This document shows positions 30,762 to 38,966 of a stretch of DNA of 38,966 nucleotides, one piece after another (position 1 is the first letter of the stretch; each line of letters starts with the position of its first letter). A model generated the notes under the pieces. The model saw only the letters and a list, made by a program, of their open reading frames with translations. It was not told where the DNA came from and did no database searches. The DNA comes from Clostridia bacterium (GTDB lineage: Bacteria > Bacillota > Clostridia > Oscillospirales > CAG-272): contig JAFTKO010000022.1 of NCBI GenBank assembly GCA_017453205.1, positions 1 through 38,966 of the forward strand. Reading direction: 5' to 3'. Position numbers and translations under genes: made by a program.

Positions 30762-32282
30762 TCAGAAGTACAATTCAAGTCTTAGCTTCGCGCTCTTGGC
30801 GTTATAATTCAAGCCAAAGTCTTTGGGGTCAATATCGCAATCCTCGCTGTAAATGCAAAAGGCCTGATGATCTAAATCACCAGGTCTTTTCTTATCTATG
30901 AAGTTGTAATATATCTCCACCTTGTCGTCATATAAGATAATTTCCTTGACGAGCAGGCGGATCATCGAATACGGCTCTTTCTTTAGTGCCTTGCAGATAA
31001 ATCGCTTGATATCGGCAGGCGTGATCTGTACTTGGCTTTTTGCTTTCTCCGCAAGCACCTTTCCTTCGGCTATCACCAGCGCGGCTTCGATTTCTTCGAT
31101 CCGCTGCTTTGTGGAGCTTGTGATAATACCCTGCGCAACGGCATCCAACATATTGTCTAATGCCTTTCGCAGCTTGTTGCGTTCCGCTTCAAGCAGATTT
31201 AATACGGAAGTCTCTTTGAGCTTCTGTTCGTGGGCTTCAAAGATTCTTGCCGTTATAAAATCAATCGTTTCGGGGTTATCCAGCACAGTAACCGTTGTGT
31301 CAACGACAAGCTGTTCCAGTACCTCTTTCCGTATTGCCGCCTTGTGGCAGAGGGTGGTATCCTTCTTTTTCAAGCCGCATTTGTAATAGCGAATGACCTT
31401 GCCCGTCTTAGACGTTCCGGAATCCGAGGTAATGGGCTTATGACAATAGCCGCAACGTAATTTGTTCTTCAAAAGGTACATAATGTTTTCCTTCGGATGC
31501 CTGCCGTGTCTGTTACCTTCTACGATAGCTTGAACATGATCGAATAAATGCTGCGGGACGATGGGAGGAAACATATTCGTATATTCTCCCTCTGATTTAT
31601 GATTATACACGCCAACATATCTTGTGTTTTGCAAAATACCGTAAATGATAGCCTGTGTAAATGGCTTGCCCTTGCGGTGCATAATGCCTTTTTCGGTCAG
31701 AGCTTTTATGATGTTTTTTGCATACGTGCCTGCCGCATACATTTCAAAAATATTTATAACGATAGCCGCTTCATCTTCGTTTACGAAAAATCTTTTGTTT
31801 TCCACTCTGTAGCCGTAAGGGATACCGCCTCCTGCATAGTTGCCTTTGATGCGGCTCTCGCGCTGTCCTCGGCTGACCTTTTGCGCCAGTTCTACGGAAT
31901 AGTATTCAGCCATACCTTCAAGCAACGATTCAAGGATGATCCCCTCGGGGCCTTCCGGGATATGCTCTTTGGCGGATACCAGCATAATTCCGTGATCCTT
32001 TAACGTCTTTTTGTGAATTGCCATTTCATACTTATTACGCGAGAAACGGTCTAATTTGTAAACCAACACCATATCCCACGCGCCTTTTTGAGCGTCTTTC
32101 AGCATCCGCTGAAAATCCGTTCTGTTGTCATTCTTACCCGTCATAGCTCTGTCGATATAGGTATCTACGATAATAATATCGTGATGCTCTGCGTATGACA
32201 TACACTCGCGGATCTGACCTTCAATGGATTTTTCCGTCCGTCTTTCGCTGGAATACCTTGCGTAAATAACTGCTGTTTTCAT
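30762..32282 (-). CDS. Large serine recombinase 1
   Basis: 506 residues from the ATG (MKTAVIYARYSS) that follows AGGAGG. Resolvase domain (1-150): YARYS with catalytic Ser near residue 11, DRAMTGKNDNRTDFQRML, and VYKLDRFSRNKYE. Recombinase DNA-binding domain (about 170-275, YGYRVENKRFFVNEDEAAIVINIF). Zinc ribbon (about 295-345: CGYCHKPITSD … YYKCGLKKKDTTLCHK). A C-terminal coiled-coil region (about 370-450), ending RLLVKEIILYDDKVEIYYNF plus an unusual 50-residue tail. Such proteins catalyse integration and excision of mobile elements through Ser-DNA intermediates. All catalytic motifs are intact. Paralogue of recombinase 2 at 33034; the pair seems to come from cassette duplication or tandem insertion. 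Confidence 0.92.
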   Translation of the reverse strand: MKTAVIYARYSSERRTEKSIEGQIRECMSYAEHHDIIIVDTYIDRAMTGKNDNRTDFQRMLKDAQKGAWDMVLVYKLDRFSRNKYEMAIHKKTLKDHGIMLVSAKEHIPEGPEGIILESLLEGMAEYYSVELAQKVSRGQRESRIKGNYAGGGIPYGYRVENKRFFVNEDEAAIVINIFEMYAAGTYAKNIIKALTEKGIMHRKGKPFTQAIIYGILQNTRYVGVYNHKSEGEYTNMFPPIVPQHLFDHVQAIVEGNRHGRHPKENIMYLLKNKLRCGYCHKPITSDSGTSKTGKVIRYYKCGLKKKDTTLCHKAAIRKEVLEQLVVDTTVTVLDNPETIDFITARIFEAHEQKLKETSVLNLLEAERNKLRKALDNMLDAVAQGIITSSTKQRIEEIEAALVIAEGKVLAEKAKSQVQITPADIKRFICKALKKEPYSMIRLLVKEIILYDDKVEIYYNFIDKKRPGDLDHQAFCIYSEDCDIDPKDFGLNYNAKSAKLRLELYF

Positions 32283-32529
32283 AGTGGTATAAACCTCCTG
32301 TTTCGTTTTTTTCTTTAGAATACAAAAAGAGCGAATAAATTTGAAGAACATCTGCTTAACCACTTTCTGACATCTACCTGTCTAAAACGTGATCTGATAT
32401 GCAGATGAACCAAACTTTATCCAAACTTCTATATTCTTCTTTCTCCCAACGGGACACCTTTTCCCGATCAGAAAAAGCCGAAGCCGTCAAGGGAAAAGGA
32501 AAAAGTATTGCAGTCGTATCACAACAAAA

Positions 32530-32574
32530 AGAGCCGATTTGAAAAACAGGTAAACTGTCAATCAAGTCGGCTCT
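32530..32574 (+). repeat. AGAGCCGATTTG-type hairpin, copy A
   Basis: AGAGCCGATTTGA / TCAAGTCGGCTCT stem enclosing a second small stem (ACAG/CTGT). Related hairpins occur at 32985-33027 and 34659-34704. It lies upstream of recombinase 1 (minus) and of the small plus-strand gene at 32801. The surrounding 32283-32800 stretch otherwise holds the TTGGTTGATGAT/TTTTGGCTAACC motifs (32692-32717) and a TATACT -10-like box near 32772. Confidence 0.6.
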
Positions 32575-32800
32575 ATGAATTTTCAGCGATACTTTTTACC
32601 CCTTTACGGGGGCGGATTTTTCTGATACACTCAAAACTCCCGTTGTCTCCAAGCAAACATACGGATAAGTTGGGAAAAGTTGTATCAATATTTGGTTGAT
32701 GATAAGTTTTGGCTAACCCACGGCTATCTTTTGGCTTGGTTGATGTTCTTCTTTTCGGAGCAGTTTTCCGTTATACTGAAAGAAAAAACGGAGGTAGCTT

Positions 32801-32968
32801 ATGAAAGAAATTCAAGTGAAAGGCAATAATAAGGACTTAAAGGTATTTATCAACGGTACGCCCGACATACGGCAGATTCCGAACGAGCTTGCAGACGCTT
32901 ATATTGTAGGCTTGGAACGGCGAATTACCGAGGACGTTCTAAAGAAGAACGAGCAAGCAGAAGCATAA
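32801..32968 (+). CDS. Small recombinase-associated protein A (NGTPxIxQIP family)
   Basis: 55 residues: KVFINGTPDIRQIPNELADA, then YIVGLERRITEDVLKKN and an acidic end. GGAGGT sits 5 nt upstream of the ATG. It shares the core (V/F)-x-x-N-G-T-P-x-I-x-Q-I-P…L-E with the small gene at 34404 that is coupled to recombinase 2. I do not recognise a named family (it does not look like TnpW). A basic-acidic helical C-terminus after a short beta segment is likely. It is on the plus strand between the two recombinases, closed by a hairpin at 32985. Possible roles are an accessory or directionality factor; this is inference from linkage. Confidence 0.65.
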   Translation: MKEIQVKGNNKDLKVFINGTPDIRQIPNELADAYIVGLERRITEDVLKKNEQAEA

Positions 32969-32984
32969 AAAATAGCAGTAAAAA

Positions 32985-33027
32985 AGAGCCGATTTGTCTA
33001 ACGGAAATTCCGTCAAGCAGATCGGCT
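32985..33027. repeat. AGAGCCGATTTG-type hairpin, copy B (terminator)
   Basis: AGCCGAT … ATCGGCT outer stem with an inner ACGGAAATTCCGT palindrome, followed by TTTTGTGTTAT. It lies between convergent genes (small protein A and recombinase 2) and probably terminates both. Confidence 0.65.
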
Positions 33028-33033
33028 TTTGTG

Positions 33034-34407
33034 TTATATATATTTATAATATATTTCTGCCCGATCATCAAATAAAATAATGTGGTCAACCAAAAAATCT
33101 ATCAATAACTGCGGTTCGCGTTGTAAAATGTTTTTTACATACTTTTCAATATCCTCACGGTTTATTTTTACACTCAGCTTTCCTTTTTCTATCAGTGTTT
33201 TTTCTTCTATCAATTTCTTTTTGTTCTCCAATTCGTTAAGTCTTGCTTGTGTCGAATCGGAGATAATTCCTTTTTCAATAGCTGTCAGCAAATTTGTTAT
33301 GGATCTCTCGATTTCTTTCTGTTCGCGTTGTAATATTTCTAAAACAGAACATAGTTTAACTCGTTGTTCATAAGCCGCATAAACGCGCTCTGAAACAAAA
33401 CTGATGAAATTCGTTTTACTCAATATTTGCGTAGTGGCATCGACAATAACGGGTTCTAATAAATCTTTGCGAACGGCTCTTTTCGTGCAAATATGCTGCC
33501 TCTTTTTACCTGCACATTGATAGTAATGAAATACCCGACCTGTCTTTGATGTTCCTGCTTCTACACTTACGTGAGAACCGCATTTTCCACACAAGAGCTT
33601 TCCGGTCAGCAAATATAAATTTTCGGTGCCGCGTCTTCCGTGTTTGTTGTTTAGTTTGCGTCCTATGATATCAAAAACAGCCGTAGGAATAATTTGAGGA
33701 TATATGTTTGAAAATACTTCACCCCCGTAACGATAGATACCGATGTATTTTTCATTTCGCAGCATACTGTAAACGCTACTGAAAGCAAACGGCTTTCCAC
33801 GGTTTGTGATACCCTTATTAGCTAAGTCTGCTATAATATCGTCTACAAATATCCCGTTTGCATATTGTGAAAATATGTATCTTACAATCTCCGCGTTTTC
33901 TTCATCAACCACAACTTTTTTATCGACGACCTTATAGCCCAAAAGAATATACCCGCCCGTAAAATTACCTTTTTGGCGGCTTTCATTCAGCCCTCGTTTG
34001 ACTTTTTGTGAAAGCTCTGCTGAATAATATTCAGCCATGCCCTCCAAGAGCGATTCGAGGATAATGCCTTCGGGAGTATCGGGGATATTCTCCATTGCCG
34101 ATACGAGCTTAATGCCGTTGTCCCGCAACGTCTTTTTGTGCATAGCAATCTCGTATTTGTTTCTTGAAAAGCGATCCAGCTTATAAACGAGAACCATATC
34201 CCAAGTTTGACGGGTGCAGTCCTTCATCATTTGTTGAAATCCGGAGCGATTGTCATTTGTGCCCGTCATAGCGCGGTCAATATATGTATCAAGTATCAGA
34301 ATATCGTTGCGCCGAGCGTAATCGTTGCACACACGAAGCTGCCCTTCGATGGATTGTTCTGTTTGTCTTTCGCTGGAATAACGCGCATAAATCACTGCTG
34401 TTTTCAT
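33034..34407 (-). CDS. Large serine recombinase 2
   Basis: 457 residues, intact. Resolvase domain with YARYS (catalytic Ser about 11), DRAMTGTNDNRSGFQQMM and VYKLDRFSRNKYE; recombinase domain (YKVVDKKVVVDEENAEIVRYIF); zinc ribbon (CGKCGSHVSVEAGTS … YYQCAGKKRQHICTK); coiled-coil (EILQREQKEIERSITNLL…) and the C-terminal FLVDHIILFDDRAEIYYKY. Very similar to recombinase 1 in the first 160 residues and clearly more diverged after that, so the two may recognise different sites. Its start overlaps the stop of small protein B by 4 nt (ATGA). Codons are more AT-rich than in recombinase 1, suggesting separate acquisition. Confidence 0.92.
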   Translation of the reverse strand: MKTAVIYARYSSERQTEQSIEGQLRVCNDYARRNDILILDTYIDRAMTGTNDNRSGFQQMMKDCTRQTWDMVLVYKLDRFSRNKYEIAMHKKTLRDNGIKLVSAMENIPDTPEGIILESLLEGMAEYYSAELSQKVKRGLNESRQKGNFTGGYILLGYKVVDKKVVVDEENAEIVRYIFSQYANGIFVDDIIADLANKGITNRGKPFAFSSVYSMLRNEKYIGIYRYGGEVFSNIYPQIIPTAVFDIIGRKLNNKHGRRGTENLYLLTGKLLCGKCGSHVSVEAGTSKTGRVFHYYQCAGKKRQHICTKRAVRKDLLEPVIVDATTQILSKTNFISFVSERVYAAYEQRVKLCSVLEILQREQKEIERSITNLLTAIEKGIISDSTQARLNELENKKKLIEEKTLIEKGKLSVKINREDIEKYVKNILQREPQLLIDFLVDHIILFDDRAEIYYKYI

Positions 34408-34583
34408 ACGGTTTCATCCTCCGATTTTTCGTATTTGTTTTTCACGATCAGTTCGGATACCTTCAATTCTAAGATTGAAACAAAGCTGTTCAATACGTCT
34501 TCGGGGATTTGCTCGATCTGTGGTGTGCCGTTTACGGTAAGGGGAAAGTGAGGGATGGATTTTTGGTTTTGTTTTTTCTTCAT
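34404..34583 (-). CDS. Small recombinase-associated protein B (NGTPxIxQIP family)
   Basis: 59 residues starting MKKKQNQKSIPHFPLTVNGT, then PQIEQIPEDVLNSFVSILEL and KVSELIVKNKYEKSEDETV. AAAAAAGGAGTC lies at the right distance from the ATG. It overlaps the recombinase 2 start by ATGA, so the two are made together. Homologous to small protein A through NGTPxIxQIP and the following helix. No signal peptide or cysteines. Such strict coupling argues for a partner role with the recombinase, for example regulating direction or binding DNA next to it. No experimental family is known to me. Confidence 0.7.
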   Translation of the reverse strand: MKKKQNQKSIPHFPLTVNGTPQIEQIPEDVLNSFVSILELKVSELIVKNKYEKSEDETV

Positions 34584-34658
34584 TGCTTTTGACTCCTTTT
34601 TTATAGAATGAGTAATCATTATATCCATAAAAAGCAGAGACTTCAAGAAAAAATATGA

Positions 34659-34704
34659 AAAGCCGATTTGTCTGGCGGAAATTCCGTCAAACAGACCGGC
34701 TCTT
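34659..34704. repeat. AGAGCCGATTTG-type hairpin, copy C
   Basis: AAAGCCGATTTGTCTGGCGG … CCGTCAAACAGACCGGCTCTTT, the best-conserved relative of copy B. Just beyond it, TTGGTTGATGAT (34740-34751) and TTTTGGCTAACC (34777-34788) repeat motifs also found at 32692-32717. A truncated plus-strand start (MGKEGSIRHKAQ then stop, near 34836-34874) suggests a lost gene of the duplicated cassette. The rest of 34789-34972 holds only the leader of the tyrosine recombinase gene, with an extended -10 TGG-TAAAAT at 34932-34940. Confidence 0.6.
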
Positions 34705-34972
34705 TGTTGTGCTATGTTGGGGTAATGTTTGGTTAATGCTTGGTTGATGATTGATATTGGCTCGGTAGATGTTATGTTTTGGCTAACCGTATGTTCTAAC
34801 ATTTCTTTCTCCTAAATGCTATACTGACGGCAACTATGGGAAAGGAGGGAAGCATTAGACACAAAGCACAGTAAGCAATGATGTGGTATAAAGCGTTTGT
34901 ATCGAGGGTTCAGGGATTATTCGCATTATTTTGGTAAAATAATATATTGAACTGTCACAAGGAGGACATTTT

Positions 34973-35812
34973 ATGAAAAGAACAGTATCTATCAACAATC
35001 TATATCAATTTCAAGAGCACTTGCGCTGTGAAGAACGCAGCGCGGCAACCATCGGAAAGTACGAGCATGACATCAAGTGTTTTTTGCTTTTTGTCGGAGA
35101 TCGGGAGCTTGAAAAATCCATTATTCTGGACTACAAGACTTCTCTTGGCAACACCTACGCGGTCACAAGCGCAAATTCTATGATCGCTGCACTCAATGCA
35201 TTTCTCCGCTTCTGCGGTTGGCACGACCTTTGTGTCAAGCAATTCAAAATGCAACGGCAAGCCTATTGCTCCGAAGAAAAGGAGCTGACTCGCGCTGAGT
35301 ATATCCGTCTCTTGGATGCGGCAACGAAAAAGAAGAACGAGAGATTGAATTTGATCATTCAGACCATTTGCGGTACGGGTATCCGAGTCAGTGAATTACA
35401 GTATATTACTGTTGAGGCTCTGCACAAGGGTGAGGCGGTGGTCAACTGCAAGGGAAAGAATCGCCGTATTTTCATCGTTTCCGAACTAAAGAAAAAACTG
35501 CTCCGTTACATTAAGGAGCAGAAGATCGCGTCGGGTGCGGTATTCGTTACAAGAAGTGGAAAGCCTGTCAGCAGAAACAACATCTGGCGTGAAATGAAAG
35601 CGCTGTGCGCGCAAGCAAACGTATCACCGAGCAAGGTGTTTCCTCACAATCTCCGTCACCTGTTTGCACGTACCTTTTACGGCATCGAAAAGGATATAGC
35701 AAAGCTCGCGGACATTCTCGGTCACGCAAGCATCAACACCACGCGCATCTATATTGTCACCACCGGAGCAGAGCATAAGCGCAAAATGGAGCATATGCGG
35801 CTGATTATCTAA
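34973..35812 (+). CDS. XerC/D-like tyrosine recombinase, probable DNA invertase
   Basis: 279 residues, intact. N-terminal SAM-like core-binding domain (about 8-90, FQEHLRCEERSAATIGKYEHDIKCFLLFV) and a catalytic domain (about 105-279). Catalytic set: Arg in CGTGIRVSELQYI, Lys in NCKGKNRR, His-x-x-Arg in HNLRHLFARTF, His in LGHASINTTRIY with the Tyr nucleophile in RIYIVT. An AAGGAGG site precedes the ATG. It is short and lacks the extra N-terminal arm-binding domain of integrases, like the Mpi/RecV class of invertases. A pair of 18-bp inverted repeats begins 36 nt after its stop and brackets a promoter, so it is the probable invertase of that switch. Confidence 0.9.
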   Translation: MKRTVSINNLYQFQEHLRCEERSAATIGKYEHDIKCFLLFVGDRELEKSIILDYKTSLGNTYAVTSANSMIAALNAFLRFCGWHDLCVKQFKMQRQAYCSEEKELTRAEYIRLLDAATKKKNERLNLIIQTICGTGIRVSELQYITVEALHKGEAVVNCKGKNRRIFIVSELKKKLLRYIKEQKIASGAVFVTRSGKPVSRNNIWREMKALCAQANVSPSKVFPHNLRHLFARTFYGIEKDIAKLADILGHASINTTRIYIVTTGAEHKRKMEHMRLII

Positions 35813-35847
35813 AAAATCCCGATGCGAATACACCGAGACACTTTACA

Positions 35848-35865
35848 ACATAACGGGAATTATGT
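35848..35865 (+). repeat. Left inverted repeat of the invertible segment
   Basis: ACATAACGGGAATTATGT, the exact reverse complement of 36089-36106. Each copy is itself a quasi-palindrome: arms ACATAA/TTATGT (extended outwards as TTTAYMACATAA-like arms) around an asymmetric 6-bp core CGGGAA. This is the form expected of a tyrosine recombinase crossover site. Confidence 0.85.
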
Positions 35866-35913
35866 GATAAACATTGATCCATTCCTGTTTGAAATAAATT
35901 GGATACATAAAGT

Positions 35914-35942
35914 ATTATACCACAAAATGCGTGTAAAATCAA
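35914..35942 (-). promoter_or_regulatory. Promoter inside the invertible segment, currently facing left
   Basis: Minus strand: -35 TTGATT (35937-35942), 17-nt spacer, extended -10 TGG-TATAAT (35914-35919). In this orientation it would produce a transcript antisense to the 3' end of the recombinase gene. Confidence 0.7.
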
Positions 35943-35975
35943 TATCTTTACCTAAATTTATATAATTTTTTCCAT

Positions 35976-36003
35976 AACGAAAACACCTTTCGTTTTCTTT
36001 TTT
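35976..36003 (+). terminator. Terminator inside the invertible segment, facing the lipoprotein gene
   Basis: AACGAAA / TTTCGTT stem with an ACACC loop followed by TTCTTTTTTT. It would stop read-through from the recombinase gene into the lipoprotein gene in the OFF state. Confidence 0.65.
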
Positions 36004-36088
36004 CAAAATTCATGCGAAAGGCTTTTTTGTTATGCCTATTTTTCTTTTTTTCTTACTTTTTGCGAAAGGATCTTTTGATCTTTTTACA

Positions 36089-36106
36089 ACATAATTCCCG
36101 TTATGT
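36089..36106 (+). repeat. Right inverted repeat of the invertible segment
   Basis: ACATAATTCCCGTTATGT, exact reverse complement of 35848-35865, preceded by TTTTTACA and followed by GATTG. It sits 52 nt upstream of the lipoprotein start codon, between any flipped promoter and the ribosome site. Confidence 0.85.
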
Positions 36107-36158
36107 GATTGTTTTGTTCTTGGGTGAAAAATCTATCAAAAGCCGGAGGAAAAAGAAA

Positions 36159-38966
36159 ATGAAATCATTTTTGAAGGCAACATTGACGTTATTGGTACTC
36201 TTATTCGTTTGTGTTCTTACGTTCACCGCTTGTGATGAAAAAGATCACGAGCACGCTTGGGGCGAATGGAATACAGTCGAAAACGCAAGCTGTACCAAAG
36301 AGGGCAAGCAGGAGCGTAGCTGTTCTTGCGGAGAAAAAGAATCTCAAAGCATCCCTATGGTATCTCATACTGTAGTATTGGATGCAGCGGTTTCTGCGAC
36401 TTGTGGAAACACGGGATTGACAGAAGGATCACACTGTTCTGTTTGCGGCGAAATCATCGTAGCGCAACAGACAATCGAAAAGGTAGATCATTCATTTGAT
36501 CTTGAAAATATCGTTTGGACTTGGAACGGTTATGAGTCGGTAACAGCAACCTTAACTTGTGTAAACGATAATACGCACACGAGACAAATCAATGCAAATG
36601 TTACCGATGAAGTAACAACTGCGCCGACTTGTACAGCGACCGGAACAAAAACCTACACGGCTACTGTAAAAATTGACGGCGTTACATATACCGCAACGAA
36701 AAACGAAACGATTGCGGCTCTCGGTCACACCGAAATTACCGATGCAGCGATTGTGGCTACCTGTGAACAAACAGGTTTAACCGAGGGCTCTCATTGTTCC
36801 GTTTGTAATGAGGTTTTAGTAGCACAGCAAGAAGTTCCTGCTACCGGTCATCATTATGATACCGGAAATATCGCATGGACTTGGGAGAAATATGATATTG
36901 GTGACGAGTCTGTTTATGTTACGCTGACTTGTAAAGAGAATGCTACACACACTAAAAAAATGTGGGTTCATCTGTCAAGCGAAATTACAGCTCCATCAAC
37001 CTGTAGTGCAGAAGGGGTGAAAACACACACCGCATACTTTGAGCTGGATGGCGTGAAATATAGTCAGCAAAAAACAGAATCTATCGAAAAAGCCGCTCAT
37101 ACTTGGGGTCACGGTACAGTAACCACACCGGCTACACCGGAAGTTGAGGGTGAGAAAACATATACTTGTGTTGATTGTCCAGCCGTGTATAGAGAGACAT
37201 TTGCTTATCCCATCACTCAGAACGAGTGGAACCAAGCGATTGATAATATTATTGGATCTCAGAATATAACTATGAATATCACCGGTGAAGGCGAGGGATG
37301 GAGTGGTTTTAATGCAACTTATTCTATCGACGGAACAAAATTATATATAATTTCTATTGCTGGTGATATATACGAAGTCTTTTATAGCAGAGAAAATGAT
37401 AAAGATTATTTTTATAATTTAACAGACGGTATATGGGAGAAATCCGAGTTGGGGGGAGTAATGGATTATTCTATATCGGTGTGCTTACCATGGAATGTTT
37501 GGGAGCAATTCAAAAATTCGTATAGCAGTTTCGTGTATGATGATAACACGGGTTTCTATGAAGCACCCGATCTTACTGTTGTTTTCAAACTTGGAGAGGA
37601 AGAAATAACTATTTCCGCAATCACGTTTGTTATTAGTGACGGAGTAATCACAGGTCTGAATTATACGTTTACATACGATGATGGCACAATTGAGATAATG
37701 AAAACGACTTTTAAAGATATTGGATCAACAACGGTAGTGATTCCTCACATCCACGAATGGAGCGAATGGTTTATTGAAACTGAAGCGACCTGTACCGATA
37801 ACGGCTTAAAGAAGCGTGAATGTACATGTGGAGAAGAAGAAACGGGGATCATTTACGCTGAAGGTCATAATTACGAATCTATAGTAACTGCTCCTACTTG
37901 CGAAGAACAAGGCTATACTACGTATACCTGTTCTGCTTGTGTAAGTTCTTATATCGGGCTTTATACTGATGCTTTAGGTCACAGTTGGGGTGAGTGGGAA
38001 GTTAAAGAAACAAATACAGTTCGTTATTGTGACAACGACTGCGGAGATTATCAGCGCATTACGTCTATCAGCGCAAGCTATCACGGTATTCGTTTGCTGA
38101 CGGGTGAATCTGTATGGGTCGATGATGTAACTGTTGTTGCTACTCTTTCCGACAATTCTATTATTTCGATTGACGATTTCACTCTTGAAAACGATGTGAT
38201 GACGGTTGACGGAGCAAATTATGTAACCGTAAAATTCAAGACACTTTCCACAACGTTTTCTGTTCCTGCTATTTATAATAATCTGCCCGGAACGACCTCT
38301 ACTTCTGAATTTACATATACAGAAGAAGATGATGCTATTACGATAACCGGCTTTATCGGATCGTCAACAGACATTATCATCCCTGCTCATATCAATCGCG
38401 TACCTGTTCGCTATATAGGAGAATCTGCTTTTAATGGGCAAGAGAATATTAAGAGTGTTGTTATTCCCGATAGTATATATAGTGTAGCCAAAGAAGCCTT
38501 TTACAATTGTAAGAGAATTGCAAGTGTAAGCTTCGGGAAAGGCTTGACCACGATCGGTCACCATGCTTTCTATAACTGCATCAGCCTAACCGAACTCACG
38601 ATCCCTGTCAATGTTATTACGATTGACGGAACTTGGGGAGACGGTGCATTTGAAAACTGCACAGGTCTAAAAAAGGTGACCATCGGTGACGCTACGGTTG
38701 ATATCGCTGCAACCACGATTGGCGAAAGAGCTTTTGCGAATTGTACCGCACTCACGGAAGTATTTATCGGAAATCAAGTGAAGCTCATTGATGCGGAAGC
38801 ATTCTCCGGATGCTCTGCATTGACTACGGTCACCATCGGAACAGGCGTTCAGAGCATCGGTGACGCGGCTTTCTATAACTGTGAGGCATTGACAACGGTT
38901 GTGGTTCCCGACAGCGTAATCACGATTGGAGCCGAAGCATTCTACAACTGCAAGAGAATCGCAAGC
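36159..38966 (+). CDS. BspA-like surface lipoprotein with Cys-rich repeats and leucine-rich repeats (3' partial)
   Basis: 936 codons in one open frame, running off the right edge with no stop. GGAGGAAAAAG precedes the ATG. Signal peptide (1-24) with a lipobox-like LTFTAC (Cys 25). Residues about 30-330 and 525-625 carry Cys-rich repeats of the form W-x-x-W…C-T-x-x-G…C-x-C-G (SCTKEGKQERSCSCGEKE, GLTEGSHCSVCGEIIVAQQ, CEEQGYTTYTCSACVSSY), the same type as in the beta-helix protein at 17894. A non-repeat domain lies between (about 350-520). From about residue 715, LRR_5/BspA-type repeats follow (IGESAFNGQENIKSVVIPDS, AFYNCKRIASVSFGKGLTTIG, AFANCTALTEVFIGN). BspA-like proteins mediate adhesion. 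It is predicted to be expressed from the invertible promoter upstream, thus phase variable. Confidence 0.88.
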   Translation, partial: MKSFLKATLTLLVLLFVCVLTFTACDEKDHEHAWGEWNTVENASCTKEGKQERSCSCGEKESQSIPMVSHTVVLDAAVSATCGNTGLTEGSHCSVCGEIIVAQQTIEKVDHSFDLENIVWTWNGYESVTATLTCVNDNTHTRQINANVTDEVTTAPTCTATGTKTYTATVKIDGVTYTATKNETIAALGHTEITDAAIVATCEQTGLTEGSHCSVCNEVLVAQQEVPATGHHYDTGNIAWTWEKYDIGDESVYVTLTCKENATHTKKMWVHLSSEITAPSTCSAEGVKTHTAYFELDGVKYSQQKTESIEKAAHTWGHGTVTTPATPEVEGEKTYTCVDCPAVYRETFAYPITQNEWNQAIDNIIGSQNITMNITGEGEGWSGFNATYSIDGTKLYIISIAGDIYEVFYSRENDKDYFYNLTDGIWEKSELGGVMDYSISVCLPWNVWEQFKNSYSSFVYDDNTGFYEAPDLTVVFKLGEEEITISAITFVISDGVITGLNYTFTYDDGTIEIMKTTFKDIGSTTVVIPHIHEWSEWFIETEATCTDNGLKKRECTCGEEETGIIYAEGHNYESIVTAPTCEEQGYTTYTCSACVSSYIGLYTDALGHSWGEWEVKETNTVRYCDNDCGDYQRITSISASYHGIRLLTGESVWVDDVTVVATLSDNSIISIDDFTLENDVMTVDGANYVTVKFKTLSTTFSVPAIYNNLPGTTSTSEFTYTEEDDAITITGFIGSSTDIIIPAHINRVPVRYIGESAFNGQENIKSVVIPDSIYSVAKEAFYNCKRIASVSFGKGLTTIGHHAFYNCISLTELTIPVNVITIDGTWGDGAFENCTGLKKVTIGDATVDIAATTIGERAFANCTALTEVFIGNQVKLIDAEAFSGCSALTTVTIGTGVQSIGDAAFYNCEALTTVVVPDSVITIGAEAFYNCKRIAS

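Follow-up and report, generated by a model that had tools for sequence, protein, structure and literature searches.

Introduction

Promoters that are inverted by tyrosine recombinases, as in the fim and RecV systems, form a class of mechanism that is already known (papers given by PMC number are cited here for selected passages). In Escherichia coli fim the promoter lies within the inverted segment and two recombinases are encoded alongside it (PMC2784873, together with general background). In Clostridioides difficile a XerC/D-like tyrosine recombinase, RecV, inverts ~200 bp ahead of surface or signalling genes (PMC2784873, PMC5903667); at cwpV the segment does not contain the promoter, and recV is remote from the switch (PMC2784873), and most switch repeats of strain R20291 are mutually unrelated (PMC5903667). 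Bacteroides Mpi is a serine-type master recombinase that acts in trans on scattered sites (PMC5903667). Inverton group 139 of hCom2 comprises 33 invertons, 32 of them from Clostridia and nearly all near a tyrosine recombinase of invertase group 35, and two of its members show orientation changes in reads (PMC11892184). Here we describe a putative switch on contig JAFTKO010000022.1 of a Clostridia bacterium of the gut (GCA_017453205.1; 2.29 Mb in 44 contigs, 73% complete). The entire contig of 38,966 bp was analysed and is called the window below; the switch consists of a tyrosine recombinase gene, a 259-bp segment between inverted repeats and a gene for a BspA-like surface protein.

We consider it very probable that these parts make up a self-contained phase-variation cassette, in which the recombinase inverts the promoter-bearing segment and so switches the BspA-like protein. 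Sequence comparison alone establishes the anatomy of the cassette, its family, the constant arms and matched cores of its sites, and the presence of both orientations among its relatives. The family of the cassette is widespread and unusual in the design of its sites, and hCom2 group 139, whose repeat is absent from the main text of PMC11892184, is probably the same family.

By analogy, the cassette would work like a fim-type switch with a dedicated recombinase. It shares with fim the internal promoter and the recombinase encoded alongside, but the enzymes are different and there is one instead of two. With RecV it shares the type of enzyme and the position of a short segment before a surface gene in Clostridia; in contrast to cwpV, its promoter is inside the segment and its recombinase gene lies 35 nt from the left site. 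Cdi7 of C. difficile, with an adjoining recombinase, is nearer in layout, judged by its description (PMC5903667). A preliminary description of this DNA had invoked the logic of Mpi and RecV, and that comparison did not hold, either for the remote recV and external promoter of cwpV or for Mpi, which is the wrong model because it is a serine-type master enzyme for scattered sites. Several invertible promoters per cell are a likeness to Mpi; the cassettes analysed, however, use tyrosine recombinases, one beside each cassette.

Structure of the locus

The cassette has the following features.

34973..35812, plus strand: tyrosine recombinase, 279 aa, apparently dedicated to the switch (PF00589, E 5.7e-26; PF02899, E 3.2e-05)
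35816..35839, minus strand: predicted intrinsic terminator between the recombinase stop and the left site (folding, -12.0 kcal/mol)
35848..35865, plus strand: left recombination site, ACATAA-CGGGAA-TTATGT (repeat and pattern search)
35848..36106, no strand: putative invertible segment, 259 bp with its sites (inverted repeats, family comparison)
35914..35942, minus strand: putative internal promoter, TTGATT-17-TATAAT with TG before the -10 (motif search, family geometry)
36089..36106, minus strand: right recombination site, inverted copy, ACATAA-TTCCCG-TTATGT in plus-strand letters (repeat and pattern search)
36145..36149, plus strand: likely ribosome-binding site GGAGG of the target gene (read off the sequence)
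36159..38966, plus strand: target gene for a BspA-like (LRR_5) probable surface lipoprotein, truncated by the contig end (open reading frame, domain search)

The left site begins 35 nt past the recombinase stop codon. Together the two sites form perfect 18-bp inverted repeats, in which palindromic arms (ACATAA...TTATGT) surround an asymmetric 6-bp core (CGGGAA / TTCCCG). When a degenerate site pattern was searched with up to 2 mismatches, these two sites were the only matches in the window, where shuffles predict 0.05. The target reading frame runs from the ATG at 36159 for 936 aa to the contig end, which cuts it, so that this length is a minimum for the protein that the preliminary description called very large. 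A domain search found LRR_5, the BspA-type leucine-rich repeat, in its product, which also carries a lipobox-like FTAC; the F at position -3 departs from the lipobox consensus. The preliminary description had proposed a tyrosine recombinase gene, behind it a 259-bp segment with perfect 18-bp inverted repeats, the quasi-palindromic form of the repeats around an asymmetric 6-bp core, and a downstream protein of BspA-like nature, and all of these were borne out.

The recombinase matches PF00589 (Phage_integrase) at 91.8 bits against a cut-off of 27.1, which places it in the tyrosine recombinase superfamily, and does not match PF00239, as a serine recombinase of the Mpi kind would. Residues R138, K162, H225, R228, H251 and Y260 are kept in 167-170 of 170 aligned relatives, the remainder being gaps. 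The models for fim-type tyrosine DNA invertases, NF007370 and NF007371, scored 30.6 of the 221 and 26.3 of the 222 bits needed. From its sequence and position, the enzyme presumably acts on the adjacent sites. Since its best named matches are XerA, XerD and XerC, together with solved Xer structures, the sites could also be viewed as integration or dimer-resolution sites of an Xer-type recombinase. We regard this as extremely improbable: the scores lie far under the NCBIfam cut-offs for XerA, XerD and XerC (141.7 of 220, 115.4 of 329.6 and 112.4 of 335.15 bits), and in the family described below the sites are inverted pairs ~250 bp apart, with a core that differs for most cassettes and up to eight cassettes per genome.

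Relatives and their site pairs

Within the genus, relatives of the recombinase were present in 10 of 35 genomes at E<=1e-40, the window genome counted; in a sample of the class they were present in 60 of 391 genomes and 43 of 223 genera at E<=1e-60. A scan of species genomes gave at least 584 relatives, of which the best 80 loci were taken. These 80 came mostly from gut metagenome-assembled genomes titled Clostridia or families therein, and included the isolates Clostridium transplantifaecale and Holdemania sp. The analysed set comprised 170 recombinase loci after removal of duplicates and partial genes. Excluded as duplicates were L011 (identical to L072), L012 (identical to L096), and L001-L004 and L006 (the same places as L005 and L007); as partial genes, L016 and L113; for its 33% identity, L118; and for a contig shared with a kept locus, L099, L101, L102, L104, L107, L119, L123, L128, L145, L181 and L189. 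The recombinases of L149 and L188 are 99% identical and probably from one species; both were counted.

Site pairs were selected by their arms alone, and the core was ignored. A pair was found downstream of the recombinase in 124 of the 170 loci, with cores that are exact reverse complements in 123. Among the 142 loci whose downstream region reaches 500 bp, 120 contained a pair, as compared with none of 127 upstream control regions. The sole pair with unmatched cores, at L093, was rejected as a chance find: the contig ends 259 bp past the gene, and the second "site" has 2 arm and 4 core mismatches. Fifteen further places were found among the sites listed. Three of them are inverted matched pairs, all with an adjacent recombinase; one has a recombinase and one site (L195), one has two sites with unmatched cores (L197), and the remaining 10 have a single site and no recombinase. 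Orphan matched pairs, with the recombinase elsewhere, were absent from these 15 places.

The window genome itself holds a second cassette. The site ACATAANNNNNNTTATGT, searched as the loose pattern ACATAA-N6-TTATGT, occurs at 4 places in the 2.29-Mb assembly, which are the window pair and a second matched pair (contig C42; L007:4490-10633). The second pair has the core TTTGCA and lies behind a recombinase 52% identical to the window enzyme. Its segment carries TTGACA-17-TAAAAT on the minus strand, which gives a clear call for the OFF orientation as defined below, and a strong terminator (-13.3 kcal/mol) faces the downstream genes. These encode a SipW-like protein, recognised by eye and without a Pfam match, and a camelysin-family protein (PF12389), as in a camelysin-type operon.

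Constant arms and pair-matched cores

The preliminary description had regarded the repeat as new. It is not confined to the window locus, and its arms recur in 123 cassettes with varied target genes. Among the 122 cassettes with enough flanking sequence, the inner six arm bases (ACATAA/TTATGT) hardly vary, and a weaker TAC-A/C extension continues them outwards. The 6-bp core, in contrast, takes 79 forms over 123 cassettes; it is identical within every pair and palindromic in none. Position 1 is T in 105 and position 6 is A in 106 of the 123, and the middle four bases are highly variable. Members of a pair differ at 0 of 738 core positions and at 14 of 1476 arm positions, a rate that would predict 7 differences in the cores. 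Cores may differ even where the recombinases are ~90-94% identical (L146/L171, L060/L063). The matched cores fit either a requirement of strand exchange or homogenisation by it. If a core match between the two sites is required, each cassette would keep one core while cassettes diverge from one another.

In C. transplantifaecale each of eight cassettes has a core unlike the others and lies beside its own recombinase. Within genomes, 1 of 64 cassette pairs shares a core (L159/L160), where 0.60 would be expected from the pool. Sharing is thus no rarer than chance, and selection for differing cores within a genome, which we had considered, was dropped as an explanation. A subfamily in genome G382 (L152-L156), which falls outside the 64 pairs, has the arms ACATTA/TAATGT, and three of the five cassettes in this genome have the core TTGATA in common, which could permit recombination between cassettes. 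In 16 of the 123 cassettes (L019, L021, L035, L098, L106, L111, L124, L132, L134, L135, L136, L137, L138, L169, L175 and L183) there is an extra site with the same core, a third one and in L175 also a fourth, 30-63 bp from a pair member and in the same orientation; such sites may be alternative segment ends.

With engineered LoxPsym sites for Cre, changing the spacer between unchanged arms can yield recombination channels that are independent of each other (PMC10850332), and these sites are the nearest analogy we can offer to pair-locked cores. The LoxPsym sites are man-made, with symmetric spacers and one enzyme, whereas the cassette cores are natural and asymmetric. Constant arms with variable matched cores are not mentioned in the passages of PMC11892184 on group 139, and no description of these arms or of pair-locked variable cores was found in the literature searched, which covered few subscription papers.

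The site design also bears on a reading in which the repeats are operators or terminators of the neighbouring genes and the recombinase is one of the upstream mobile-element genes (serine recombinases, 30762-34407). The proximity of these genes is in line with it, and each site is a hairpin-forming palindrome. However, recombinase and site pair co-occur in 123 loci, related segments are found reversed, and an operator would need no core that is variable and yet identical within the pair, so we hold this reading to be very improbable.

Promoter direction and inversion

The preliminary description had placed a promoter inside the segment without naming its strand. The motif TTGATT-17-TATAAT with its TG is there, but it lies on the minus strand (35942-35914) and aims at the recombinase, away from the BspA-like lipoprotein gene. 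A rival match on the plus strand (TTGAAA-18-TATTAT, 35889-35918) has equally many consensus matches, 10 of 12, without the TG. Since the segment contains 2 promoter motifs where shuffles predict 1.8, the motif alone is uninformative and the geometry of the family must decide.

Across the family, the best promoter score was at least 11 in 81% of segments and in 6% of mononucleotide shuffles. A score margin of 2, our threshold for a clear call of promoter direction, was reached in 72% of segments and 10% of shuffles. The calls for 123 segments were 67 clearly OFF, 21 clearly ON and 35 ambiguous, the window included. Of the 88 clear calls, 80 have a -10 that ends between 20 and 60 nt short of the exit site, and 82 have a 17-nt spacer, although the score itself favours 17.

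When segments were aligned with each other, the strand of the alignment agreed with the promoter calls in 64 of 65 comparisons; as these draw on 45 segments and the promoter is part of what is aligned, they are not independent. Clearly called segments with like calls aligned on one strand in 47 of 48 comparisons, and for opposite calls all 17 comparisons gave a reversed alignment; the lone disagreement (L009/L019) is a weak 70-nt match. In the clearest case, L171 against L182, the whole segment is reversed at 82%. Reversed alignment where the promoter calls differ indicates that inversion has happened in the family and that both orientations occur among related cassettes. Closer to the window cassette, L008 (OFF) and L021 (leaning OFF) align in reverse with L019 and L020 (ON), and the window segment aligns as expected on the same strand with L022 (leaning OFF) and L008, and reversed with L019. 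A contig end lies within 300 bp of the recombinase downstream in 18 of 88 loci and upstream in 2 of 88; this excess is, indirectly, the effect expected of mixed orientations in a sample.

For the window segment the promoter scores are 11.5 (minus) and 10 (plus), a difference of 1.5 that falls in the ambiguous class. Measured to its exit site, the minus-strand -10 ends 48 nt away, a distance typical of the family, and the plus-strand match ~170 nt away, which favours OFF. On this geometry the assembled orientation is most likely OFF. The minus-strand terminator at 35816..35839 is placed to halt a leftward transcript ahead of the recombinase gene. Among the 65 cassettes whose spacer reaches 20 nt, 47 have such a recombinase-side terminator on the minus strand and none has one on the plus strand.

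In the mechanism that we propose, the recombinase would bind the constant arms of both sites, exchange strands within the 6-bp core and invert the segment. In the ON orientation the internal promoter would drive the BspA-like gene; in the OFF orientation, most likely the assembled one, it would fire leftwards and be halted by the terminator ahead of the recombinase gene. The switch is presumably active in the window organism, and expression would follow orientation. Comparison with relatives lends good support to the earlier proposal that a recombinase controls an invertible promoter ahead of a BspA-like surface protein.

This mechanism should be interpreted with some caution, since several observations weigh against it. 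The window promoter call falls short of the clear margin, as it does in all 35 ambiguous cassettes out of 123, and the window has a weak target-facing terminator (-4.8 kcal/mol). The window segment has a reversed match of 72 nt to L025 (OFF) and matches on both strands to L020 and L008, and because of these conflicting matches it is no clean witness of inversion. As the score favours 17-nt spacers and the promoter lies within the segment alignments, the lines of evidence are not fully independent. Finally, 46 of the 170 relatives lack a standard pair. In 22 of these the contig ends within 320 bp. Of the remaining 24, 22 were examined: 7 have clear variant sites (L017, L152-L156, L162), 5 have less clear repeats (L075, L112, L148, L187, L191) and 10 have no repeat in the first 1.3 kb downstream. 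In one of these 10, L077, three standard sites lie farther off, at 2.8-3.2 kb downstream. L083 and L086 have a single site on a short contig.

Promoter inversion is not the only way in which an inverting segment could control the target. As in cwpV, a terminator within it could control read-through from the recombinase side, with the internal promoter playing a minor part. Among the 88 clear calls, a target-facing terminator of -8 kcal/mol or better is present in the OFF state in 34, compared with 17 that have one on the opposite strand and none of 88 shuffles, and the second cassette has its -13.3 kcal/mol terminator. A strong promoter at a fixed distance from one site in most segments argues against this alternative, as does the window's own value; a strong terminator as the OFF block of the window was rejected at -4.8 kcal/mol and retained as a rival. 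We find terminator control unlikely as the main principle.

The excess of OFF over ON among the clear calls (67 and 21) would also be expected if the cassette were a relic, formerly inverted and now fixed OFF in the window organism; likewise, the eight cassettes of C. transplantifaecale are 4 clearly OFF, 4 ambiguous and 0 clearly ON. However, the window has perfect sites and an uninterrupted recombinase in which the catalytic residues are preserved, and we consider a relic quite improbable.

Three segments of ~400 bp (L132, L135, L178) carry strong promoters on both strands and are perhaps two-way switches.

Genes under the switch

The first downstream genes were scanned for 116 of the 123 cassettes, with heuristic starts and proteins cut at 450 aa; domain counts refer to the first 25 of 80 families listed. 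Among these are Band_7_1 (SPFH) in 11 genes, TetR_N in 11, camelysin in 6, LRR_5 in 5, CpsB/CapC in 3, YpsA SLOG in 3, S-layer homology in 2 and ResIII/DEAD helicase in 2. From the many domain families it follows that the switch serves many gene types, extending past adhesins to regulators, TasA-like proteins and defence-like genes. At L148, on the Pusillibacter faecalis plasmid pMM59_01 (typed conjugative), a relative of 48% identity is followed by a different pair of 20-bp inverted repeats and, downstream of it, an S-layer homology protein.

Ten target proteins were checked for anti-phage defence. Good matches were obtained for L167, a TIR effector whose domain is of the CAP12/Pycsar type, and for L059 and L170, restriction-type helicases; matches were weak for L165, L089 and L159, and L164, L103, L136 and L184 gave none. 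The switched genes of L167, L059, L170, L164, L165 and L172 are a TIR effector, two restriction-type helicases and three SLOG-like proteins, and phase-variable defence is possible for such targets.

We tentatively suggest, as a possibility with the balance somewhat against it, that gut Clostridia run several such switches per cell with a recombination chemistry common to all, that related recombinases read the constant arms, possibly also in trans, and that the rapidly drifting, pair-locked core is a heritable insulating address within a portable module. If so, these sites would parallel in nature what orthogonal lox sites achieve by engineering, and the module would have been placed ahead of adhesins, TasA-like fibres, SPFH proteins, TetR regulators, capsule enzymes and defence-like genes. 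The family supplies many natural site pairs with arms alike and cores different, and so makes it testable how paired cores stay identical while diverging from one switch to another, and whether mismatched cores keep parallel switches in one cell apart. The rule of a recombinase gene followed by ACATAA-N6-TTATGT and its core-matched inverse ~250 bp on also allows phase-variable genes, and often their state, to be read from genomes of uncultured Clostridia.

Just upstream of the window cassette lie two large serine recombinases of 532 aa (30762-32363, minus strand) and 456 aa (33034-34407, minus strand), and a 131-aa open reading frame (34404-34802, minus strand) with no match in Pfam, NCBIfam or PHROG. 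These three genes could mark where an integrated mobile element ends.

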